Source of the DNA: Synechococcus sp. RS9916
GTDB taxonomy: Bacteria; Cyanobacteriota; Cyanobacteriia; PCC-6307; Cyanobiaceae
Length of the DNA: 64,000 nucleotides
Reading direction: 5' to 3'
Assembly (NCBI RefSeq): GCF_000153825.1
Contig: NZ_DS022299.1
Coordinates: forward strand, 248,001-312,000
The notes under the pieces were generated by a model. That model was given only the letters and a program-made list of their open reading frames with translations. It did not search any database and was not told the DNA's origin. This document shows positions 25,859 to 38,250 of the stretch, piece by piece (the first letter of the stretch is position 1; every line of letters begins with the position of its first letter). The translations under genes and the position numbers were made by a program.

Positions 25859-27256
25859 ATGGTTCTGGCTCTGGCGACCGTGGCGCAAAACCTTGATTCC
25901 GCATCTTTTGATCTGATCGTGCTTGGGGCAGGCTCCGGGGGGCTTGCTGCCGCGAAGCGGGCGGCCCGCCATGGGGCGCGGGTGGCGATTGTGGAGGGGG
26001 ATCGGGTCGGCGGGACCTGCGTGATCCGCGGTTGTGTGCCCAAGAAGTTGCTGGTGTACGGATCCCAGGTGCAGGAGCAGTTGGCGGATGCGGCCAGCTA
26101 CGGAGTCACCGTGACCGCCGCGCAACAAGACGCATCGGTGTTGTTGAACAACGTCCGCAATGAGGTTGATCGGCTCAATGCCCTTCACATCTCTTTCTTA
26201 GAGAAAGCGGGGGTGACCCTGGTGCGGGGCTGGGGACGCTTTCTGGACGACCATCGGATTGCTGTGCGTCGTGACGGTGATGGTGAGCGGGAAGAGGTGT
26301 TGCAGGGGAGCCGCATCCTGATCGCCGTTGGCGGTCAGCCCAGTCGACCGTCGATCCCCGGGGCGGATCTGGCCTGGGTGAGTGATCAAATGTTTCTGCA
26401 GGAGAGCTACCCGCAACGGGTGGTGATTGTCGGCGCTGGGTTCATCGCCTGTGAGTTCGCCTGCATCCTCAGGGGGCTTGGCGTTGACGTGACGCAGCTG
26501 GTGCGGCGGGATCACCTGCTGCGTGGCTTTGATCGCGAGCTGGCCGATGCGGTCCAGGAGGGGATGGTTGAAAAGGGGATCGATCTGCGCTTTGGCACGG
26601 CACCGACGGCGATCGAGGGGTCACCCGGAGATTTGGTGGTTTGCACCGATGGTGGTGAGCGGTTGCCGTGTGGTGGGGTGCTGCTGGCCACGGGCCGCCG
26701 CCCTTTCCTGGATGGCCTCGATCTGGCATCTGCTGGTGTGCAGGTGGAAGGCCATCGTGTGCCAGTGGATGCCGACCAGGCCACCAACGTGCCCCATATT
26801 CATGCGGTCGGTGATGTGACCGACCGGATCTGTCTGACGCCCGTGGCGGTGGATGAGGGGCGTGCATTTGCCGATGCTGCCTTTGGCGGGATTCATCGAC
26901 AGGTCAACCACGACTTGGTGGCCAGTGCCGTGTTCAGTCAGCCGGAGCTGGCCACGGTGGGCCTCAGTGAAGAGGCAGCCGTCGAACGTCTGGGTGCTGA
27001 TCAGGTGGTGGTGCATCGCGCCCGCTTCCGTTCGATGGCTCAGGCTCTGCCCAAGCGTGGTCCCCGCTGTCTGCTCAAGCTCGTGGTCGACAACACCAGC
27101 GATCGGGTGCTCGGTTGTCACATGGTGGGCGAACACGCCGCTGAAATCATTCAGATGGCGGCGATTGCCATCGGCATGGGAGCGACCAAGGCGGATTTCG
27201 ATCGCACGATGGCGTTGCACCCTTCGGTGGCAGAAGAGTTCGTCACCATGGGGTGA
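25859..27256 (+). CDS. gor: Glutathione reductase
   Basis: This flavoprotein regenerates GSH from GSSG with NADPH. The FAD-binding motif is LIVLGAGSGGLAAAKRAA, the redox disulfide is GGTCVIRGCVPKK (plant/cyanobacterial form), the NADPH-binding motif is VVIVGAGFIACEFA, and the C-terminal active-site histidine is in ALHPSVAEEFV. The ATG at 25859 gives 465 residues. A GTG at 25838 is possible. The sequence of the GxGxxA second motif followed by VRRDHLLRGFD supports NADPH use. Confidence 0.93.
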   Translation: MVLALATVAQNLDSASFDLIVLGAGSGGLAAAKRAARHGARVAIVEGDRVGGTCVIRGCVPKKLLVYGSQVQEQLADAASYGVTVTAAQQDASVLLNNVRNEVDRLNALHISFLEKAGVTLVRGWGRFLDDHRIAVRRDGDGEREEVLQGSRILIAVGGQPSRPSIPGADLAWVSDQMFLQESYPQRVVIVGAGFIACEFACILRGLGVDVTQLVRRDHLLRGFDRELADAVQEGMVEKGIDLRFGTAPTAIEGSPGDLVVCTDGGERLPCGGVLLATGRRPFLDGLDLASAGVQVEGHRVPVDADQATNVPHIHAVGDVTDRICLTPVAVDEGRAFADAAFGGIHRQVNHDLVASAVFSQPELATVGLSEEAAVERLGADQVVVHRARFRSMAQALPKRGPRCLLKLVVDNTSDRVLGCHMVGEHAAEIIQMAAIAIGMGATKADFDRTMALHPSVAEEFVTMG

Positions 27257-27314
27257 GTCGTCGGGCGCTCATTATCCCGCCAACCTGGCAAAACCATGGA
27301 AGCCGGCGCAGCTG

Positions 27315-28835
27315 TTACCCGTCCAGGCGCCGGCCCAGGCTCTCGCCCAGACGGAGGGCCAGGGCAATGGTAGTGAGTCCTGGGCCCACACTCGGACAGC
27401 TGGGAAACACGCTCGTGTCGGCGATGTAGAGGTTGTCGAGCTCATGGCAGCGGCCATCCGCGTCCACCACGGAGGAGGCCGGATCTGTTCCCATCCGACA
27501 GGTGCCGCAGCTGTAGCCCACCACGCTCATGGGTGCTTCGCCGCGGGGATGGGTAGGAGCCTGGCTCACCACCTTGGTGATGGGGTCCGCCTCCACGGCT
27601 TTGAGGGTGTCAAGCCAGCGGTAAACCAGGCGATCGTGGGCTTCCCGGTTGTTGTGCAGATAGTTGATGCGCACCTGATCGTGGTGGAGCCACACCTTGT
27701 TGTGGGGGTCGGGCAAGACTTCGGTCATGGCCCACCAGGCCACGGAGCGCGAGGCCAGTCGTTCCAGGCCAAAGTCGGGAATCAGCTTGCTCACCAGCGA
27801 CAGCACCGGAGGCGATTCCGCAAACAGCGCATCCTGCAGCACGCCACCAGCGGTCTGGATGTGTCCGAGCGGGAAGCTCACATTCTTGTCGCCCCAGTAG
27901 TAGTCGTTGATCCCAAGCGAGCGCGGGTAACGACCGTCGTTGCGTTCAGTCGCGAGCTGCAGGATTGAAGTCAGCTGCAGGTTCATCAGGTTGCGCCCCA
28001 CCTGATCGGAGCCATTGCTGAGACCACGGGGATGGCGGTCGTTGCTGGAACGCAGCAGGATGGCCGGTGAGTTGATGGCGCCGGCCGCCAGCACCACGAG
28101 GTCGGCGGAAAACAGCCACAGATCTCCGGCGACGTCCGCTTCGACCCCTTTGACGGCTCGGCCGCTGGGGTTCACATGCAGCCGCAGAACCCTGGCTTCG
28201 CTGCGCACAGTTAGATGGTCCTCATCGCCAAGGGCGAGGCCAAAGAGCTGGGAGTCCCCTGTGGGGTCGTCGGCATCGTCCGACCAGCTCAGTGGAATGT
28301 CGTAAGGCTGGCAGCCTTGGCGTTGTAATGCCTCTCGCAAAGGCTCGAGAAAGGGCACCAAGGGGCGGGGAGGCTCCCCAAAGGGGCTTGACCGCGGTGG
28401 CTCGGTGGGATCAACACCGCTCGTCCCATGCACCCGATACAGGGTTTCCGCGTCGTCGTAATAGGGGGCTAGCTCCTGGTAGTCGAATGGCCATGCCGGT
28501 GAGATGCCGTTCTGTAGTGGCAGGTCACTGAAGTCGCGCTCACGCATGCGTTCGAGCACCGCGCCCCAGATCTTGGTGTTGCCCCCGAGGGCATACATGG
28601 TCTGCGGAGCGAACGGATCTCCATCGGGCCCGAACCAGCGCTCCTGGCGGGGGTGGTATCGGTCTTTGCGGAACAGATCCACGTCGGCGACGTTCTGATC
28701 GGCCAGGGCCATCGCTCCGCCCCGCTCCAACACCAACACGTTGCGGCCCTGCCGGCTCAGGGCACCAGCAAGGGTTCCGCCACCGGCTCCACTGCCGATA
28801 ATGATCACGTCGTAGTGGAGATCGTCGATGATCAT
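27315..28835 (-). CDS. GMC family oxidoreductase
   Basis: This is a 506-residue FAD enzyme of the glucose-methanol-choline group. The FAD motif is VIIIGSGAGGGTLAGALS at about 10-27 with VLVLERGG. A LVVLAAGAINSPAILLRSS segment (about 250) and the C-terminal YIADTSVFPSCPSVGPGLT fit the GMC signature. The histidine expected in the C-terminal catalytic pair cannot be assigned with certainty. It lies 19 bases after ctaE on the same strand, the last gene of the oxidase operon, so its reduced product may feed the quinone pool. The substrate is unknown. Confidence 0.85.
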   Translation of the reverse strand: MIIDDLHYDVIIIGSGAGGGTLAGALSRQGRNVLVLERGGAMALADQNVADVDLFRKDRYHPRQERWFGPDGDPFAPQTMYALGGNTKIWGAVLERMRERDFSDLPLQNGISPAWPFDYQELAPYYDDAETLYRVHGTSGVDPTEPPRSSPFGEPPRPLVPFLEPLREALQRQGCQPYDIPLSWSDDADDPTGDSQLFGLALGDEDHLTVRSEARVLRLHVNPSGRAVKGVEADVAGDLWLFSADLVVLAAGAINSPAILLRSSNDRHPRGLSNGSDQVGRNLMNLQLTSILQLATERNDGRYPRSLGINDYYWGDKNVSFPLGHIQTAGGVLQDALFAESPPVLSLVSKLIPDFGLERLASRSVAWWAMTEVLPDPHNKVWLHHDQVRINYLHNNREAHDRLVYRWLDTLKAVEADPITKVVSQAPTHPRGEAPMSVVGYSCGTCRMGTDPASSVVDADGRCHELDNLYIADTSVFPSCPSVGPGLTTIALALRLGESLGRRLDG

Positions 28836-28854
28836 GGTCGTCGAAGAAAGGTGG

Positions 28855-29460
28855 TCAGTTCGTGCGTTGCCAGACGTAAATCAGCACGTAGAGGATGATC
28901 CAGATCACATCCACGAAGTGCCAGAAGAGGCTCACCGATGCCACACCCATCTCGCCTTTGGCGTAGTTGTCGGTGCGGAATGAGCGCACCAGCATCAGTG
29001 CCATCAGCAGGATCCCGGTGATCACATGCAGGCCGTGAAATCCGGTGAGTAGATAGAAGGTTCCTCCGAAGACACCGCTCTGGAGCGTGAAGGCCAGCTC
29101 TGACCATTCGACGTATTGGCCATACACGAAGTAGGTGCCCATCGCCATCGTGAGCAACCAGAAGCCACGGAAGCCCCAAAGGTTGCGGTGATGCAGCTGG
29201 CGTTCGGCGAAGTAGGCCACGAAGCTGGAACTCACCAGCACGATTGTGTTGATGAGGGGCATCCGGGTCTCGAGACCCTCGACTCCCTCAGGGAGCCATT
29301 CGGGAGCGGTGATTTTCAGGAGGGCAAATCCGGCAAAAAAGGCCAGAAAGATGATGCTTTCGGAGCAGAGGAAGATGACGAACCCCGTGAGGTTGTGGCC
29401 GTCATGTTGGATGTGCCCAGGGGTGTGATTCAGGGGGCTCTCAGGTTGAGCTGTGGTCAT
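28855..29460 (-). CDS. ctaE: Haem-copper oxidase subunit III
   Basis: This is the third subunit of a terminal oxidase, about five membrane helices in 201 residues. The landmarks are FVIFLCSESIIFLAFFAGFALL at the first helix, FLLTGFHGLHVITG and LFWHFVDVIWIILYVLIY at the end. It lies four bases after ctaD and 19 before the GMC gene. Its assignment to an alternative (quinol) oxidase follows from the subunit II gene in the same operon. Confidence 0.93.
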   Translation of the reverse strand: MTTAQPESPLNHTPGHIQHDGHNLTGFVIFLCSESIIFLAFFAGFALLKITAPEWLPEGVEGLETRMPLINTIVLVSSSFVAYFAERQLHHRNLWGFRGFWLLTMAMGTYFVYGQYVEWSELAFTLQSGVFGGTFYLLTGFHGLHVITGILLMALMLVRSFRTDNYAKGEMGVASVSLFWHFVDVIWIILYVLIYVWQRTN

Positions 29461-29464
29461 GGGA

Positions 29465-31153
29465 TTAGGCCTCCTGTGCGCGACGCACGTAGTACTCCTC
29501 GTCGTTCACCAGAGGACGTCCCAACCCATAGCCATAGGGCTCATTGATCACCGTGGGCACGTCCTCTTCGAAGTTCTCGGCTGGAGGGGGAGAGGGAAGC
29601 AACCACTCCAGTCCGATGGCCTTCCATGGATTGGCAGGCGCCTTGGGGCCGCGGGCCCAGGAGCTGACCATGTTGAGGATGAAGGGGATTGAGGCAACGC
29701 CAAGCATGAAGGCGCCGATGCTGGCGATCACATTCCAGAGGGCGAACTCCGGGTCGTAGGACGCGACGCGGCGCGGCATCCCCATCAGTCCTGCCCAATG
29801 GAGGGGAAGCCAGTTGAGGGTGGCGCCGATGAAGGTCAGGGCGAAGTGCACTTTCCCAAGACCTTCGTAGAACATGCGGCCGGTGAACTTGGGGAACCAG
29901 TGGTAGAGGCCCGCGAAGATCCCGAAGCCGATGGTGTTGAAGATGATGTAGTGGAAATGGGCAACCACGAAGTAGGTGTTACCGACGTGGATGTCGATCG
30001 GGGCGGTGCCGAGCATCACTCCGGTGATGCCGCCAAAGATGAAGTTCACCAGCCCACCCAACACAAACAGCATCGGGGTGGTGAGCCGGATCTTTCCTCC
30101 CCACAGGGTGCCCAGCCAGGCGAACACCTTCACCCCTGTGGGGACGGCGATCAGCATGGTGGTCACCATGAACAGATTGCGCATCCACTGGGGGGTGCCG
30201 GAATAGAACATGTGATGCACCCACACAATCAGCCCTAGGAAGGTGATCACAAAGGAGGCAAGGGCCACAAAGCGATAGCCAAACAAAGGCTTGCGTGAAT
30301 AAACGGTGATCAGCTCCGAGAAGATGCCAAACACCGGCAGCACCATCACGTAGACCGCAGGGTGGGAATAGAACCAGAAAAAGTGTTGATAGAGCACCGG
30401 GTCTCCACCTCCTTCGGGACGGAAGAAACTGGTGCCAAAGCTGAGATCAAACAGCAGCATGATCGCGCCGCCGGTGAGCGCTGGCAGTCCGACCAGTTGC
30501 AGGGTTTGGGCCGCCCAGGCGGTCCAGACGAACACCGGCATGCGAAAGAACCCCATCCCCGGGGCACGCATGCGGATGATCGTGGTGACGAAATTGATCG
30601 CACCCATGATCGATGAGATCCCCGAGAGGGCCACGGCCAGGATCCAGAGGAACTGGCCGTTAATGAAATGCCCCAATGGGTTCTGAATGCTCACTGGGGG
30701 ATAGGACCACCACCCGGCTGATGCAGGGCCACCAGGCACGAAGAAACTGGCCATTAGCACCACCGCAAACACTGGCACGAGCCAGAAGGCCGCGGCATTT
30801 AGCTTTGGGAAAGCCATGTCGGGTGCGCCGATCATGGTTGGAATCAACAGATTGTTGAATCCATTCAGAACGGGAAATAGAAACAGGAACAGCATCACTG
30901 TTCCGTGCATGGTGTAGAGGCCGTTGTAGACGCTCGGATCGACCAAATCGGAGGGTGGCGTGATCAGTTCGCCACGCATCACCATCGCCAGAAGGCCACC
31001 CACCAGTAGGAAGAAGAGCGCCAAGCCGATGTATTGAATGCCGATCACCTTGGCATCGGTGTTGAAGCTGAAAAAACGCTTCCAGTTGTCGGGTGCGCCG
31101 GGCACCGGATGCGGCGCTTTGAGCACCCGCGGGTCATAGTTGGTGGTGGTCAT
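29465..31153 (-). CDS. ctaD: Haem-copper oxidase subunit I, A2 type
   Basis: The catalytic subunit, 562 residues and about 12 helices, carries the low-spin haem and the haem-CuB centre. The low-spin haem histidine is in TMHGTVMLFLFLFP. The CuB/Tyr region reads WFYSHPAVYVMVLPVFG, so the YSHPxVY motif of A2 oxidases replaces the GHPEVY of A1 types. Further ligands lie in WVHHMFYSG and FVVAHFHYII. Located between ctaC and ctaE. By itself it does not tell cytochrome c from quinol oxidase. Confidence 0.95.
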   Translation of the reverse strand: MTTTNYDPRVLKAPHPVPGAPDNWKRFFSFNTDAKVIGIQYIGLALFFLLVGGLLAMVMRGELITPPSDLVDPSVYNGLYTMHGTVMLFLFLFPVLNGFNNLLIPTMIGAPDMAFPKLNAAAFWLVPVFAVVLMASFFVPGGPASAGWWSYPPVSIQNPLGHFINGQFLWILAVALSGISSIMGAINFVTTIIRMRAPGMGFFRMPVFVWTAWAAQTLQLVGLPALTGGAIMLLFDLSFGTSFFRPEGGGDPVLYQHFFWFYSHPAVYVMVLPVFGIFSELITVYSRKPLFGYRFVALASFVITFLGLIVWVHHMFYSGTPQWMRNLFMVTTMLIAVPTGVKVFAWLGTLWGGKIRLTTPMLFVLGGLVNFIFGGITGVMLGTAPIDIHVGNTYFVVAHFHYIIFNTIGFGIFAGLYHWFPKFTGRMFYEGLGKVHFALTFIGATLNWLPLHWAGLMGMPRRVASYDPEFALWNVIASIGAFMLGVASIPFILNMVSSWARGPKAPANPWKAIGLEWLLPSPPPAENFEEDVPTVINEPYGYGLGRPLVNDEEYYVRRAQEA

Positions 31154-31158
31154 GCGGG

Positions 31159-32064
31159 TCAGGCGTCGTGGGGCGCTTCAGGGGTGCCGGGGTCATTGAC
31201 CATCGGTGGCAATGCCGGGGGGACCGTGGCCCAGCCCCGGTCCCCCTTGGCAAGGCGTTGTGCGTAAAGAGGTGTCGCTGGACTGAGGCCTGGAACCAGT
31301 GGCTGAGAGGCGCTGTGTTCTAACCATTGGTTGAATGTCTCCTCCGACTCGACGATCACGTGGGTCTGGTTATGGGAGAAATAGGCGCCGCTGAACATGG
31401 CATCTCTGAGGCGGTAGGTGCCTGCGCGCGTCGGCGTGACGCTGTAGGAGATCACGCTGCCCGGAATGATGTCTTGTTTGAGCCGAAAGGCCGGGACGTA
31501 AAAACTGTGGAGTACATCGGCGGAGCTGAGCTGAAGGTTGGCGCGCTGATCAATGGGCAGGTGTAACTCGGAGCTGCGCACACCATTGGGGTAAACAAAT
31601 TCCCAGCTCCATTGGCGAGCCATCACACCGATTGGGCCGAAATCCCGACGGGTATCGGCAACCGCCACAGCTCCGGGGGCCTGATCGGCGGCCACGTCGT
31701 ATTTGGTTTGTGGTCCGAGCGAGGCCAGCTGCTCATTGACATGGATGGAATAGAAGGCCAGAGCCATCACCACCACAAACGGAATCACCGTCCAGGTGAT
31801 TTCCAGGCGTGTGTTCCCTTCAATGGGTAAGCCGTCGCTCTCGTCGTATTTCTCGGCCCGGTTAAACAGCACCGACCAGAGGATGAAGCCGACGCAACCC
31901 ACGAAGATGAAGCAGCCAATGCCCACTTCGAGGCTGAATAAGCCGTCCACATAGGGGGCTGCGGTCGAGGCCGCCACCGGGAGCCAGTCGACCGACCAGT
32001 GGGCTACCTGAACGCTCAACACCAGATTGAGCAGGGTGCAGAGGCCGATCACAACCCATCTCAT
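31159..32064 (-). CDS. ctaC: Oxidase subunit II without CuA ligands (ARTO/quinol type)
   Basis: It has the two N-terminal helices and the cupredoxin domain of subunit II, 301 residues. The first CuA-region histidine is present in VLHSFYVPAFRLKQD. However, where cytochrome c oxidases have the Cys-x3-Cys-x3-His-x2-Met cluster, this protein reads TYRLRDAMFSGAYFSHNQT, with no cysteine. The CuA centre therefore cannot form. This is the mark of the cyanobacterial alternative respiratory terminal oxidase, thought to oxidise quinol. The ATG overlaps the upstream DUF2231 gene by four bases. Confidence 0.9.
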   Translation of the reverse strand: MRWVVIGLCTLLNLVLSVQVAHWSVDWLPVAASTAAPYVDGLFSLEVGIGCFIFVGCVGFILWSVLFNRAEKYDESDGLPIEGNTRLEITWTVIPFVVVMALAFYSIHVNEQLASLGPQTKYDVAADQAPGAVAVADTRRDFGPIGVMARQWSWEFVYPNGVRSSELHLPIDQRANLQLSSADVLHSFYVPAFRLKQDIIPGSVISYSVTPTRAGTYRLRDAMFSGAYFSHNQTHVIVESEETFNQWLEHSASQPLVPGLSPATPLYAQRLAKGDRGWATVPPALPPMVNDPGTPEAPHDA

Positions 32065-32693
32065 GGCAGCACCTCCCCTAGGTCAGCACCGGCGGCGAGC
32101 AGTTGGTCTGCAGTGATGTGCACCCCAAACTCACTGGCCAGCCAGGCGCCGAGGCTGCCGTGCAGACCCATCAGCAACAGCACAACAGTGCCGCAAGCCA
32201 AATACAGCCAACTCACCTGACGCCCCAACTCCCGGCGCCAGACGAAGCGTTCATAGGCCCGCCAGATGGTCATTGCCACGATGATCAGCAGCAGAGCCAC
32301 CCCACCGACGGCATGCCAAAGCATGGTGTCGATCGCGTTCTGCCCCAACACACTGCGTACGCCCGGCAGGGGGACCGCTAGAAGCATTTCAAAAAAGCCT
32401 GCGGCCACCGTGAAAAAGCTGATCACGCTGCAGGCGAGCACGTTGTACCAGCCCACGTCGTGGAAGCCGACCCGTGTTACTGGCAACGCCAGGAAGCGGA
32501 ACACCCGTTTCTCAAGGGGGTAGAACGCGCCTGCGAAATCAAAGGCGATGCCGATGGCAAACAACCCGATGGTGAAGTGCACCAGATTCGGGTGGATCGG
32601 AATCGAATAAGGCAGGTCATTGGGCCCTAGTCGGTCAGCGATCTCATTGATCGGCGAACTGATCAGCCCGAGCCCGATCCAGGTGCTGCTCAT
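32061..32693 (-). CDS. DUF2231 membrane protein, second of the pair
   Basis: A 210-residue membrane protein with about four helices, starting MSSTWIGLGLISSP. DUF2231 features are seen: IPIHPNLVHFTIGLFAIGIA with two histidines in the first helix, then LWHAVGGVALLLIIV in the third. The ATG at 32693 overlaps the stop of the upstream DUF2231 gene by four bases. The longer frame upstream is the antisense of nothing and is rejected. Conserved membrane histidines raise the idea of haem binding, but this is inference. Confidence 0.85.
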   Translation of the reverse strand: MSSTWIGLGLISSPINEIADRLGPNDLPYSIPIHPNLVHFTIGLFAIGIAFDFAGAFYPLEKRVFRFLALPVTRVGFHDVGWYNVLACSVISFFTVAAGFFEMLLAVPLPGVRSVLGQNAIDTMLWHAVGGVALLLIIVAMTIWRAYERFVWRRELGRQVSWLYLACGTVVLLLMGLHGSLGAWLASEFGVHITADQLLAAGADLGEVLP

Positions 32694-33229
32694 GACAGCA
32701 CCCCACTGCGGGCGGCCTCCACCACGGGCACGGTGTGCAGTCCATAAATCCAAACGAGCTTGTCGCCGAGATAGACCTGCACAACGACAAGGGCAGCCAG
32801 CAGGCTGTCGACGGCCAGAAAACCTCCAGGTAAACGGTTGGGGTCCTTCTGGCGAACCACAAAACGCCAACCCGTCAGCAACCCCAGTACGCCGGCGAGG
32901 GACCAGCCGATCGTGCTGTGGATGTTGAGAATGTCGCGGGCCGCTCCGTAAGGACTGGCAAGCCCGGCTTCAATCTGGCCAAAGATGATGGCGACGAAAA
33001 TCGCCACCGTCGCCACCAACAGATTCCAGAAGCTGACCTCAAATAAGTTGCGGCGTCCTGTGACGACGCCAATCAGGTCGAACACAACGCTGATCAGCGC
33101 CATCGCAATCACGAAATGGACGACGATGGGATGAATGACGTCGAGCCAGGGCAGGTTCTTGTCGTTGAGGGGCGGGAGCAGCCCGAGCATCGGCAAGCCG
33201 ACGAATAACCCTTTCAGGATGTCCAGCAA
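32690..33229 (-). CDS. DUF2231 membrane protein, first gene of the oxidase operon
   Basis: A 179-residue protein with about four helices. IHPIVVHFVIAMALISVVFDL again carries the paired histidines of DUF2231, and NIHSTIGWSLAGVLGLL another. It resembles its neighbour in plan, so the two probably form a heterodimer. It opens the minus-strand series DUF2231-DUF2231-ctaC-ctaD-ctaE-GMC, whose junctions overlap or are under 20 bases apart. Confidence 0.85.
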   Translation of the reverse strand: MLDILKGLFVGLPMLGLLPPLNDKNLPWLDVIHPIVVHFVIAMALISVVFDLIGVVTGRRNLFEVSFWNLLVATVAIFVAIIFGQIEAGLASPYGAARDILNIHSTIGWSLAGVLGLLTGWRFVVRQKDPNRLPGGFLAVDSLLAALVVVQVYLGDKLVWIYGLHTVPVVEAARSGVLS

Positions 33230-33276
33230 CTAACGCGTGGTCATCCTTCCTGATGAGTTTTGTCGAAATCGCCTGA

Positions 33277-34380
33277 TCAACCGCCGGTGCGGTGGCGTTT
33301 CAGTTGACGCCAGTAGATCAGCGCCTGCGTGCTGATGATCACCATCACCGCTGGCAGCACCAGGCACAGCACCACCAGGCGGAATTCATCGCTCCAGCTG
33401 GCCAGCTGGGTTCTGGGCAGCACGTTGTCGACCATATAAACGCAGTAAAGCCCCACCAACAGTCCTCCCTCCAACCTGGAGATGGATCCCTTCGTCCAGA
33501 AGATCGGGAAACAGGCCAAGCAGGTGAGCAACATCACTGGGATGTCGTCGCTAATCAGTTCAGGGCTCACCTGGAGCCCACGGGCTCCGGCGGCAATGGC
33601 GCCGCCCCCCAGCACCAATAGCAGGTTGAGTAGACAACTGCCCACCACGTTGCCGATCGCCAGGTCGGTGCGGCCCCGCAGTGCTGCCACCAACGAGGTG
33701 ATCAGCTCGGGCATCGAGGTGCCAGCCGAAACGATGGTCAGACCGATCACGGCTTCACTCACCCCCAGCTGCAATGCGGCTGCACTGGCGCCTTTGACCA
33801 GGAGCTGGGCTCCAAAGCCCAGCACCACAATCCCACCCAACAGGCGGATCGATGCCTTGATCCAGCCCTCATCCGCGGTTTCGGCATCAATCTCAGGCTC
33901 GGCGTTTTCCATCTCCTCGGGTTCTTCCCGCGCAGTGCGGATCTCCCAGATGGTGTTGATCACCAGGGCCAGCAGCAGGGCCACGCCCGACTGCCAGGTG
34001 ATCCTGCCTGTCGAAGCCATGCCCCAGACCGCAGCCGATACGGCCAGGAGCAGGGGAACATCCCGTCGCACCAACCGGCTCTCCACCTTCAGGGGCAGCA
34101 CCAGAGCACTGCTCCCCAGCACCACCATCACATTGAAAATGTTGCTGCCTACTGCGTTGCTGACGGCCAGGGCATCGGAGCCCTGAAGCACAGAGCCAAT
34201 GCTCACGAAAAATTCGGGGGCGCTAGTGCCCAGCGACACCACGGTGAGTCCGATCACCAGCTGGGGGATCCCGAAGATCAGCGCCAGGGTGACCGCCCCT
34301 TGCACAAACAGCTCGCCGCCACCAAACAGCAGTGCAATGCCCACCAGCACTTCAAGGGCTGACAGCAAGAAGGGAGGCAT
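33277..34380 (-). CDS. Calcium/cation antiporter, YrbG (CaCA) family
   Basis: A 367-residue integral membrane exchanger with the two inverted alpha-repeats of the CaCA superfamily: SLGTSAPEFFVSIGS with AVGSNIFNVMVVLG in the first half, and SAGTSMPELITSLVAAL with VVGSCLLNLLLVLG in the second. The conserved acidic residue of each repeat (E in APEF and MPEL) is present. An acidic loop (about 158-175, EEPEEMENAEPEIDAETAD) separates them. It is divergent from the bicA-like gene, 120 bases away. Confidence 0.9.
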   Translation of the reverse strand: MPPFLLSALEVLVGIALLFGGGELFVQGAVTLALIFGIPQLVIGLTVVSLGTSAPEFFVSIGSVLQGSDALAVSNAVGSNIFNVMVVLGSSALVLPLKVESRLVRRDVPLLLAVSAAVWGMASTGRITWQSGVALLLALVINTIWEIRTAREEPEEMENAEPEIDAETADEGWIKASIRLLGGIVVLGFGAQLLVKGASAAALQLGVSEAVIGLTIVSAGTSMPELITSLVAALRGRTDLAIGNVVGSCLLNLLLVLGGGAIAAGARGLQVSPELISDDIPVMLLTCLACFPIFWTKGSISRLEGGLLVGLYCVYMVDNVLPRTQLASWSDEFRLVVLCLVLPAVMVIISTQALIYWRQLKRHRTGG

Positions 34381-34500
34381 CGCAGAACCGCTTGATGCGA
34401 TGATTCTGCTACCACAGATGGATTGCGAATGCTGATTGGAAGGGAACTTGTCGCAGGCTGGAGCCGCCTAACATTTCCGAGTCTGTTTATTAGGGGTTCA

Positions 34501-36144
34501 GTGCTTCTGAATCGCATCAGCACCCAGACCATCAAAGGCGATGCCTTTGGTGGTCTGACGGCGGCGGTGGTGGCTCTGCCGATGGCGCTTGCTTTCGGTG
34601 TTGCGGCCACCGGTGACCCGGGCCCCGGGCTTTGGGGTGCCGTGATCATTGGCCTGGTGGCTGCTTTTTTTGGGGGTACTCCCACGCTGATTTCCGAACC
34701 CACAGGTCCAATGACCGTGGTGTTCACTTCGGTAATCATCAGCCTCACCGCCACGGCTCCAGACAAGGAGACCGGTCTGGCCATGGCCTTCACGGTGGTG
34801 ATGCTGGCGGGTTTATTCCAAATCCTCTTTGGGGTCTTCCGCCTGGGGCGTTATGTCACCCAGATGCCCTACACGGTGATCTCGGGCTTCATGTCGGGGA
34901 TCGGGGCCATCCTGGTGATCCTGCAGTTACCCGCCTTTCTTGGCCAAGAAGCCCAAGGAGGGGTGAAAGGGACCATCGTTCGAATCCCTGAACTGCTCAG
35001 CAAGGTTGATGGTCCGGAGCTGGCTCTGGCGGTCGTCACTGTTGCGATTCTGTGGTTCACGCCAGGCGTCGTGAAGCGGTTCTGCCCTCCGCAGCTGCTG
35101 GCGTTGGTGGTGGGCACCTTGCTCTACATCCTTTTGCCCAAGGAGCTGGATCTCGCTGTCATTGGTGAGTTCTCTGCGCAATTGCCAAGCCCCCAGATGC
35201 CGCGCTTTGACGGAGGGCAGCTGAGTTTGATGCTGGTGGATGGGGCTGTCTTGGGCATGCTCGGATGCATCGATGCGTTGCTCACCTCGGTGGTGGCTGA
35301 CAGCCTCACCCGCACCGAGCACGACTCCAATAAAGAGCTGGTGGGGCAGGGGCTGGCCAACATCGCCTCCGGAATTTTTGGTGGTCTCCCCGGCGCCGGC
35401 GCCACCATGGGCACAGTGGTGAATATCCAGGCGGGCGGTCGCTCAGCTCTCTCCGGGATCATCCGGGCTGTGATCCTGATGGTGGTGGTGCTGGTCGCCG
35501 CTCCCCTTGCCTCCATGATTCCTCTGGCGGTCTTGGCCGGGATCGCCTTGAAGGTGGGTATCGACATCATCGACTGGGACTTCCTGCGCCGGGCCCATCA
35601 CCTGTCGGTCAAGGCAGCGTTGATCACCTACGGGGTGATTGCTCTCACTGTTTTGGTGGATCTGATCGCCGCTGTGGGCATTGGTGTGTTTGTGGCGAAC
35701 GTGCTCACCATCGACCGGATGAGCGCTCTGCAGTCGAAGCGCGTGAAGACGATCAGCACAACGGACGATGACGTGGAGCTGTCGGTTGATGAGCAGCAGT
35801 TGGTTGACCATGCCTCAGGCCGAGTGCTGTTGTTCCAGTTGGCGGGGCCGATGATTTTCGGGGTGGCGAAGGCCATTTCCCGCGAGCACAACGCCATTGG
35901 CGAGTGTGAAGCCGTGATTTTTGACCTCCACGAGGTGTCTCACCTGGGCGTGACGGCCTCCTTGGCCCTTGAAAATGCCATCAAGGAAGCCCTTGAAGTG
36001 GGTCGCCAGGTTTATCTGGTGCTTCTGCCTGGTGTCACCCGTCGTCGCCTCGAGAAGCTGAGGTTGCTAGAGCTGATTCCTGAGGAGTGCATTACCACTG
36101 ACCGTTGTGATGCATTGCGCCGGGCGGTCGCCGGCCTCAACTGA
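34501..36144 (+). CDS. bicA: SulP family transporter, BicA-like (Na+-dependent bicarbonate)
   Basis: BicA brings bicarbonate across the plasma membrane with sodium, for the carboxysome to use. The N-terminus [21 protein letters not shown] and [19 protein letters not shown] matches BicA of PCC 7002 closely in memory. There is a C-terminal STAS domain (about 430-547, [17 protein letters not shown]). I set the start at GTG 34501, which gives the same distance to (K/R)GD as in BicA and has AGGGG before it. A longer frame to 34423 is open. Sulfate transport by a SulP relative cannot be ruled out from sequence. Confidence 0.82.
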
Positions 36145-37302: not shown

Positions 37303-38250
37303 ATGGCTGTTTCCAAGTCCAGCTTCGTCGACACTGAGTACGCGGCGGATCACCCCCGCTTCCACGATCTGTTGCTGTTCAACGCTCAGATGGAAGTGTT
37401 GTTTGAGGGGTGTCGTTGGTTGGAAGGGCCGGTATGGATCGGAGATCAGAACCGGCTCCTGGTCTCAGACATTCCCAATGACCGGATCCTGGCTTGGGAT
37501 GAAGACCACGGGCTGAGTGTCTTCCGCCATCGAGCCGGTTTCCCGAATGGGCAGACCCGAGATCGCCACGGACGGCTGCTGACCTGTAGTCATGGCGAGA
37601 GGGCTTTGCTGCGCACCGAGCACAGCGGCCGGGTGGTGCGCCTTGTCGATTCCCATCGCGGAGAACCCCTCAATACCCCCAACGATGTGGTGGTCAAACG
37701 CGATGGAACGATCTGGTTCAGTGATCCGCTGTACGGACTGATTAACGATTACGAGGGTGGGAGACGCAGTTCTCGCCAGCCGGCCAGGGTCTATCGCTTT
37801 GATCCCAACGATGGATCTTTGACGGCGATGACCGAGCCATCGCAGGTGGTTGGACCCAATGGTTTGGCGTTCTCTCCCGATGAATCGCTCTTGTATGTGG
37901 TCGATACGGGGGCACCGGATGATCCCGATCCAGAACGCCGCATCCTTGTGTTCGATGTGGAGGATGGTGGTGGTGCCCTTGGCGAGGCGCGGTTGTTTCA
38001 CCAGGTGAGTCCGGGTTACGCCGATGGCATCTGCGTGGATGAAGAGGGCCATGTCTGGAGCAGCGCAGGCGATGGCGTGCACTGCATTGCGCCTGATGGT
38101 CATCGCCTCGGCCGCCTACGCACGCCTCAACGGGTCGCCAATCTCTGTTTTGGTGGGGAACACTGCAACCGTTTGTTCATCTGCGCCTGGACGGCGATGT
38201 ACGCCATTCACGTCAACACCCGTGGCGTGCAGCATCCGGCAATGCCTTAA
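37303..38250 (+). CDS. SMP-30/gluconolactonase-type beta-propeller protein
   Basis: A six-bladed propeller of 315 residues. The calcium/metal-site pattern is visible as FEGCRWLEGPVWIGD (Glu ligand in EGP), NTPNDVVVKRDGTIWFSDP (Asn-Asp) and GPNGLAFSPDE (Asn). The enzyme group includes lactonases for gluconolactone and similar sugars, and the real substrate here is open. It follows pyrC by 28 bases and ends before a tRNA gene on the other strand. Confidence 0.85.
   Translation: MAVSKSSFVDTEYAADHPRFHDLLLFNAQMEVLFEGCRWLEGPVWIGDQNRLLVSDIPNDRILAWDEDHGLSVFRHRAGFPNGQTRDRHGRLLTCSHGERALLRTEHSGRVVRLVDSHRGEPLNTPNDVVVKRDGTIWFSDPLYGLINDYEGGRRSSRQPARVYRFDPNDGSLTAMTEPSQVVGPNGLAFSPDESLLYVVDTGAPDDPDPERRILVFDVEDGGGALGEARLFHQVSPGYADGICVDEEGHVWSSAGDGVHCIAPDGHRLGRLRTPQRVANLCFGGEHCNRLFICAWTAMYAIHVNTRGVQHPAMP

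Follow-up and report, generated by a model that had tools for sequence, protein, structure and literature searches.

The stretch of DNA analyzed here is a 64,000-nt window of the Synechococcus sp. RS9916 genome (2.66 Mb, a single contig), and its minus strand carries a six-gene unit in the order DUF2231-A, DUF2231-B, ctaC2, ctaD2, ctaE2 and GMC, each gene being confirmed by its Pfam match (Table 1). The oxidase of this unit is of the known cyanobacterial alternative respiratory terminal oxidase (ARTO) type. Our preferred reading, which is tentative and falls somewhat short of an even chance, is that the unit presents ARTO in its full genetic setting, where a quinol-side terminal oxidase is encoded together with a DUF2231 relay pair and a flavoprotein, and where the pair would have preceded the loss of CuA. 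Both quinol oxidation and a part in iron reduction have been ascribed to ARTO, although its CuA center is gone and the residues of the bo3 quinol site are absent. From the present survey, two proteins that nearly every examined ARTO operon encodes emerge as candidate subunits, along with a flavoprotein partner; the candidate subunits accompany other heme-copper oxidases too, and electron entry into ARTO becomes a testable question. It also bears on marine picocyanobacteria, in which ARTO genes mark low-iron Prochlorococcus populations (PMC10119275; this and the other published sources are cited from excerpts of their texts).

The sequence-only reading of this DNA had claimed that subunit II lacks CuA, and alignment with the CuA-bearing CtaC of the same genome bore this out. 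In this reference CtaC the CuA stretch is CAELCGPYHGGM, and residues 218-234 of the window subunit II are RLRDAMFSGAYFSHNQT, which replaces the CuA cluster. The ligands Cys243, Cys247, His251 and Met254 of the CuA-bearing CtaC become Asp221, Ser225, Phe229 and Asn232, and His208 is kept as His186. As such, the window subunit II does not carry the CuA center by which an aa3 cytochrome c oxidase is recognized. Relatives were counted from loci L079-L198 (one row per locus, giving 110 rows for ctaC and 96 for ctaD, of which 101 and 90 were left at <99% identity); these loci were mostly fetched as ARTO loci, and the CuA-bearing loci of the L230 type are not among them. The CuA Cys residues and the second His were absent in all 101 distinct ARTO-linked CtaC relatives, the first His was kept in 101/101, and the Met position was kept in 88/101. 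The stretch that replaces the copper loop is well conserved, with the Asp in 100 and the Ser in 101 of the 101 relatives, and therefore does not represent decay. The ctaC2 relatives thus combine this strongly conserved stretch with one surviving CuA-type His and, where it is kept, the Met.

In subunit I, the oxygen site is intact, because the six His and the Tyr and Lys positions for heme and CuB are kept in the window protein and in 90/90 distinct relatives. In the CtaD tree, the window CtaD belongs to the ARTO clade (31 rows), which is separated from the CtaI rows at 99/100, and together with the CuA-less subunit II this agrees with the ARTO assignment that had been made from the sequence. 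Escherichia coli cytochrome bo3 is likewise a heme-copper oxidase with a CuA-less subunit II, and differs in the residues R71, D75, H98 and Q101 of its CyoB, which we take to be its quinol site. These residues correspond to Val, Leu, Val and Gly in the window subunit I, and E286 in helix VI corresponds to Ala, within the YSHPAVY motif, in the window protein and in 90/90 relatives. As judged from these alignments, ARTO shows no recognizable inlet for cytochrome c and no recognizable counterpart of the quinol inlet known from bo3. Because the residues of the bo3 quinol site are absent, we infer quinol entry for ARTO instead of reading it from the alignment.

The six-gene order recurs. In a neighborhood survey of 291 genomes of the class, in which the places of ctaC, DUF2231-A and GMC were joined, 150 ARTO-type ctaC places were found among the matches listed, in 143 genomes; the 150 DUF2231-A places used are likewise those among the matches listed. 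With the own genome included, DUF2231-A lay <2 kb upstream on the same strand at 140/150 listed ctaC places and GMC lay <8 kb downstream at 110/150, the latter count using a cut of approximately 355 bits that misses at least one adjacent GMC (G073, L101). At this cut, 121 of the 128 genomes with a GMC orthologue have a listed ARTO ctaC, and four of the other seven (L091, L092, L099 and L115) have oxidase genes beside GMC in the fetched stretches. The GMC orthologue is not adjacent to oxidase genes at L084, L086, L087 and L089, and for G055, a genome from the same genus as the window, the matches listed include neither GMC nor DUF2231-A. A scan of named genomes returned 558 DUF2231-A relatives, and among the best 80 of 558, DUF2231-B followed DUF2231-A in all 78 loci with room, with ctaC next in 70/70, ctaD in 65/65 and ctaE in 61/62. 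Where the locus offered 6.5 kb or more, all six genes stood in order in 54 of 58 cases. The earlier proposal that the six genes form one unit is thus sustained by their recurrence. Neither of the two findings that would have overturned the sequence-only reading, CuA ligands elsewhere in subunit II or a six-gene order that does not recur, was obtained.

The same order is annotated on plasmid A of Trichormus variabilis ATCC 29413 and on Nostoc edaphicum pNe_5, where DUF2231, DUF2231, COX II, ctaD, COX III and GMC follow one another as in the window. These clusters differ from the window operon in that cydA (and cydB too in N. edaphicum) comes after them and divergent BlaI/CopY and M56 genes lie upstream, neither of which adjoins the window operon. 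The BlaI/CopY and M56 genes at L212 and L220 (Trichormus and Nostoc plasmids) are reminiscent of the copper-responsive PetRP system, for which copper control by PetR/PetP has been described (PMC12292863). A PetRP-like copper control in the window's genome was considered and rejected, since PF03965 was not found there.

DUF2231 pairs also stand beside other oxidases. At L230, L231, L232 and L241, a CtaC with intact CuA comes directly after the pair. At L229 (approximately 5.8-10.9 kb), a COX1-family gene and FixO/CcoO, which make up a cbb3-like oxidase, precede DUF2231-A and DUF2231-B, and an NDH-2-like gene comes next; the same COX1-type gene lies beside the pair at L228. Here a C-type oxidase has the membrane partners that are otherwise seen with ARTO. 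DUF2231-A in L228, L230 and L241 and DUF2231-B in L230 were taken from the genome search and not from the picking of open reading frames. Since the pairs adjoin both a CuA-bearing CtaC and a cbb3-like oxidase, the DUF2231 pair is an oxidase partner that does not depend on CuA loss. On a Gloeothece verrucosa plasmid (L213, 6519-7630), a pair was observed without an oxidase and with SDR, VOC and copper-binding-protein genes near it. Beyond the cyanobacteria, six of eight plasmid records with DUF2231 were examined (tblastn E 0.1-4; five of the six annotated as DUF2231). Single DUF2231 genes lie inside copper-resistance clusters at L215, L219 and L221 (two Sphingobium plasmids and one Phenylobacterium plasmid), and two Manganitrophus records have them near efflux and HupE genes. 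On a Spirosoma plasmid (L218, 5965-9698), the DUF2231 gene lies two genes away from one annotated as cbb3-type cytochrome c oxidase subunit I, with a ferritin-like gene near, an observation that is in line with the preferred reading.

The predicted model of DUF2231-A consists of four main helices (pLDDT 81). Its His33, His38, His104 and His165 (numbered from 33229) are present in 30/30 and 57/57 rows, the window included, and Asp17, Gln72 and Glu74 (numbered from ATG 33190), which lie near the His residues, are invariant in 57/57 rows. DUF2231-B has His34, His39, His127 and His192 in 30/30 rows, its own included. When ten DUF2231 proteins were compared, two of the four His were found in 10/10 and a third in 9/10, and the C-terminal His had a counterpart in the alignment for the six A and B proteins from cyanobacteria alone. 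The mean Arg+Lys content of DUF2231-A was 1.93 and 3.77 in loops 1 and 3, and 0.07, 0.30 and 1.05 in the N-terminus, loop 2 and the C-terminus, respectively. Based on the model, all four His lie near one membrane face, and this is probably the outer face because the positive-inside rule, applied to the loop charges, places them outside. With its His near one face, one such protein alone would not span the membrane. By sequence, the only match of DUF2231-A among solved structures was weak and unrelated (E 0.39); in Foldseek the best E was 0.074, and the VIA rows were mostly generic four-helix bundles and COX III.

The last gene of the unit encodes a protein whose nearest solved structures, by sequence and by model (pLDDT 75), are glucose and fructose dehydrogenases. 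Both the N and C domains of the GMC family (PF00732, PF05199) scored above the cut-off, and the residues of the GxGxxG FAD motif are invariant. Fructose (7w2j) and FAD-glucose (6a2u) dehydrogenases, which pass electrons on to the respiratory chain, share the GMC fold and the FAD motif with it, whereas their catalytic His and Asn are replaced in the ARTO-linked GMC proteins. We take the His and His/Asn pair of GMC enzymes to be catalytic; the solved fructose dehydrogenase variants alter a His and Asn residues of that enzyme. The His and Asn of the Burkholderia glucose dehydrogenase 6a2u align with Tyr441 and Gly484 of the window protein, and the canonical pair occurs together in none of 100 distinct operon-type relatives. 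Position 441 was occupied by Asn in 59, Tyr in 20, His in 16, Phe in 2, Ser in 2 and Gly in 1, and position 484 by Ser in 64, Gly in 30, Thr in 3, Pro in 2 and Asn in 1. These 100 relatives were obtained from 104 distinct rows, 102 of which scored at least 400 bits, after the window copy and one near-duplicate were set aside, and they include a few second copies outside the operon (for example L186_198, L180_4510 and L117_6017). The two rows below 400 bits had His-Asn (L118_4760) and His-Gly (L196_14516, partial). At L118 (Cyanobiaceae, approximately 3.2-4.8 kb), we noted a second GMC copy with the canonical His-Asn near the ARTO operon.

Both the His and the Asn are present in all six relatives that are not linked to ARTO (one each from Gloeothece, Paraburkholderia, Streptomyces and Caballeronia and two from Nostoc), and in a GMC tree of 48 rows the six canonical His-Asn rows form one clade (100/99); the root of the tree is unsure, as the outgroup, the genome's second GMC, is on a very long branch. 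We speak of a loss of the pair in the ARTO branch because the nearest relatives and the solved dehydrogenases have His-Asn. The second, distant GMC of the window's genome has His and Ser at the catalytic columns, which weighs against a simple loss. From the aligned residues, it seems that the FAD scaffold was retained in the GMC protein of the ARTO branch and that the usual catalytic residues were lost from it. The flow from a GMC substrate to quinone that had been proposed from the sequence assumes a working active site, and it lost its footing here with the canonical His-Asn missing in the window and in 100/100 relatives. The protein is probably cytoplasmic, because it begins directly with the FAD motif and no export signal was seen by eye. 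Gluconolactonase, DoxX, SDR or GH15 genes are found next to several of the non-ARTO relatives, and the neighbors of these relatives suggest descent from a sugar dehydrogenase and a connection with quinol oxidases. At L226, a Streptomyces canus plasmid, the GMC relative adjoins cytochrome bd genes and a FAD/NAD oxidoreductase gene, which is an observation in favor of the preferred reading. An SMP-30/gluconolactonase gene (PF08450), of the kind that neighbors GMC relatives elsewhere, also lies in the window itself at 37303-38250 on the plus strand, approximately 4 kb from the operon.

In the reading that we prefer, ARTO is probably located in the plasma membrane, and electrons would enter the plastoquinone pool from a flavoprotein, either NDH-2 or the GMC-fold protein by a non-standard chemistry. 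Plastoquinol would be oxidized near the outer face, the DUF2231 pair would hold a cofactor (b-heme or copper) on its invariant His and hand electrons to the low-spin heme of subunit I, and O2 would be reduced at the heme-CuB site. With the pair in service at the oxidase, loss of CuA would have become possible, and the CuA-bearing oxidases with a pair would represent the earlier state. Three points lead us to prefer a relay: the pair is found with oxidases and a dehydrogenase at once, ARTO is otherwise without a known inlet, and the standard oxidase of the same genome lacks the pair. The recurrent gene order, the ATGA overlaps that couple the pair to ctaC, the absence of CuA with heme and CuB His retained, and the DUF2231-A His on the probable outer side also speak for this reading. 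In line with it, the fetched stretches of L090, L228, L229, L234 and L235 contain no GMC and have an NDH-2-like gene adjoining the pair, inserted at L090 between DUF2231-B and ctaC (approximately 8.6-9.9 kb); tblastn of 141 loci gave clear NDH-2-like matches in nine. In addition, cydA lies beside or inside the cluster in 3/141 loci (L120, L212 and L220), and in Synechocystis the plasma membrane contains ARTO alongside NdbB/NdbC (PMC6878006). Several observations weigh against the relay and its flavoprotein. A fold search of DUF2231-A identified no heme or quinone site and returned generic four-helix matches, and none of CyoB R71, D75, H98 and Q101 is present in 90/90 distinct ARTO subunits I. 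The CuA-bearing and CuA-less DUF2231 oxidases were grouped weakly in the CtaD tree (82/0). GMC is not in the fetched stretch of the Nostoc-like L079-L081 and L093 and is also missing from the Nostoc sp. C052 plasmid cluster and from Fischerella L194, and it is therefore dispensable for some ARTO operons. NDH-2-like genes are found near GMC-bearing ARTO operons too (L097, L146, L191, L198 and L210), and NDH-2 and GMC are therefore not strict alternatives. Finally, three of the six non-cyanobacterial DUF2231 records are in copper-resistance clusters, which fits metal handling. A bolder form of the relay, which we regard as unlikely, would make DUF2231 pairs the electron inlet of three oxidase kinds (CuA-less A2, CuA-bearing A2 and cbb3-like), drawing on quinol without cytochrome b6f, and would make the ARTO GMC a dismantled sugar dehydrogenase that was repurposed as a dedicated flavin donor.

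Metal handling leads to a rival that we hold to be rather unlikely, but that stands close to the relay, given that CuB is common to the three kinds of oxidase and that some DUF2231 genes lie in copper clusters. The DUF2231 pair would then be an assembly factor, which handles copper (or heme) on the outer side, loads the heme-CuB site of the particular heme-copper oxidase encoded beside it and carries no electrons. A CuB site is the common need of the CuA-less, CuA-bearing and cbb3-like oxidases that the pairs accompany, and the single DUF2231 genes of the Sphingobium and Phenylobacterium copper-resistance clusters fit this role, as do the BlaI/CopY and M56 genes that adjoin the operon in L212 and L220 and lie approximately 5 kb off in L170 and L234. 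However, the standard cta operon of the window's own genome has no DUF2231 pair, in a genome with no further DUF2231 genes, so that CuB loading does not in general require the pair. Moreover, BlaI and M56 matches are rare (3/141 loci), the window's genome gave no PF03965, and no copper-resistance cluster was seen at the two Manganitrophus records and the Spirosoma record. A specific takeover by the pair of the role of CuA as electron inlet, upon copper loss in subunit II, is very improbable. Its presence in nearly every ARTO operon examined would suit such a replacement, which is also the role that the sequence-only reading had given to it, but pairs adjoin the CuA-intact CtaC of L230, L231, L232 and L241 and the cbb3-like CcoN/CcoO oxidase of L228 and L229. 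On this ground, a substitute for CuA only was rejected as the main explanation.

The function of the whole unit and that of the GMC protein could be read differently as well. If the unit were a ferric reductase for periplasmic Fe(III) reduction and FeoB-type import, with oxygen reduction being secondary, the impaired Fe reduction and uptake of a Synechocystis ctaD2/ctaE2 mutant and the ARTO genes that mark low-iron Prochlorococcus would be accounted for (PMC10119275, PMC7676907), and feoB is near one six-gene cluster. We consider this distinctly improbable, because the residues of the heme-CuB oxygen site are conserved in 90/90 distinct relatives, no Fe-binding module was identified in the unit, and the proximity of feoB was seen in one record only. 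An ordinary sugar or alcohol dehydrogenase that feeds quinone, with its catalytic residues relocated, is a doubtful explanation for the GMC protein. The fructose and glucose dehydrogenases as nearest solved folds, the gluconolactonase, DoxX, SDR or GH15 neighbors of the non-ARTO relatives and the invariant residues of the FAD site are in its favor, and the genome's second GMC, with His and Ser, also does without the Asn, so the His-Asn pair is not universal in the GMC family. Nevertheless, among the 100 operon-type relatives, His at 441 (16), Asn at 484 (1) and both together (0) contrast with the non-ARTO relatives, in which 6/6 have both.

The five-gene part of the unit is known from Anabaena. 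The cox3/ARTO operon of Anabaena 7120 is alr2729-alr2730-coxB3-coxA3-coxC3, and it is unclear, according to the same review, whether the ARTO complex has further subunits (PMC6616624). The products of alr2729 and alr2730 are putative membrane proteins, lowered together with the cox3 genes (PMC7065334); alr2729 is listed as 'cox3 operon' with an NtcA-bound site (PMC3898017), and both genes appear in a SigC table (PMC4390870). That alr2729 and alr2730 are DUF2231 genes we infer from Nostoc records and Nostoc-like loci and not from the Anabaena genome itself. The Anabaena cox3 oxidase (ARTO/Qox, ctaC2D2E2) thus resembles that of the window in its CuA-less subunit II, its heme-copper subunit I, the gene order C-D-E and the two upstream membrane-protein genes (PMC6616624, PMC7065334), and the difference is the GMC gene added downstream in most surveyed loci. 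The text of the review contains no match for GMC or any DUF name (PMC6616624). The novelty that had been claimed for both links was thus halved: the DUF2231 link is already present in the Anabaena cox3 operon (PMC6616624), and for the GMC link with ARTO our literature search found no report, which is weak evidence of absence as most subscription journals lie outside the search. A search for DUF2231 found nothing beyond a cysteine database. The Synechocystis chain of NDH-2 and ARTO likewise combines a flavoprotein dehydrogenase with ARTO in a single membrane (PMC6878006), with NdbB/NdbC in that case and a co-encoded GMC-fold protein here, and another source assigns ARTO, together with a partial chain, to the cytoplasmic membrane (PMC13331136).

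Table 1. Genes of the six-gene unit in the window, in order of transcription
Gene	Position	Strand	Evidence and remarks
DUF2231-A	32690..33229	-	PF09990 4.9e-35; 4-helix membrane protein; first gene
DUF2231-B	32061..32693	-	PF09990 2.3e-38; second DUF2231 protein
ctaC2, oxidase subunit II without CuA	31159..32064	-	PF02790/PF00116
ctaD2, oxidase subunit I	29465..31153	-	PF00115 4.9e-153; heme and CuB His kept; YSHPAVY motif
ctaE2, oxidase subunit III	28855..29460	-	PF00510 1e-34
GMC-fold flavoprotein, 506 aa	27315..28835	-	PF05199 5.1e-20, PF00732 4.2e-6; last gene

The PF09990 scores of the DUF2231 pair were 131.8 and 121 bits against a cut-off of 26.4, and these two are the only DUF2231 genes of the whole genome. 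The second, standard cta operon elsewhere in the genome has the CuA ligands in its CtaC and no DUF2231 pair. Overlaps between the genes, which the sequence-only reading had described for the operon, hold for two junctions, as DUF2231-A and DUF2231-B share a 4-base ATGA overlap (32693-32690) and DUF2231-B and ctaC2 share another (32064-32061); the ctaC-ctaD, ctaD-ctaE and ctaE-GMC junctions are gaps of 5, 4 and 19 bases, respectively. The start of DUF2231-A is uncertain and may be TTG 33229, ATG 33190 or a codon between them. The position of ATG 33190 is the start of the open reading frame in 13 of 14 distant orthologues (the 14th, L105, being trimmed by three residues), but the match in close relatives sets in between residues 5 and 14 of the frame that opens with TTG 33229, and a few upstream codons look conserved. 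A promoter scan of 27000-34700 gave no sigma-70-like site, and from upstream sequences compared by eye we claim no shared regulatory motif. The Na+/Ca2+ exchanger gene upstream (33277-34380) was considered as a member of the unit and rejected; it adjoins the operon in 9/12 Cyanobiaceae loci (L199-L207) and was not found in L208-L210 or L118. Nine close relatives share synteny with the window from a glutathione-reductase-like gene as far as pyrC.

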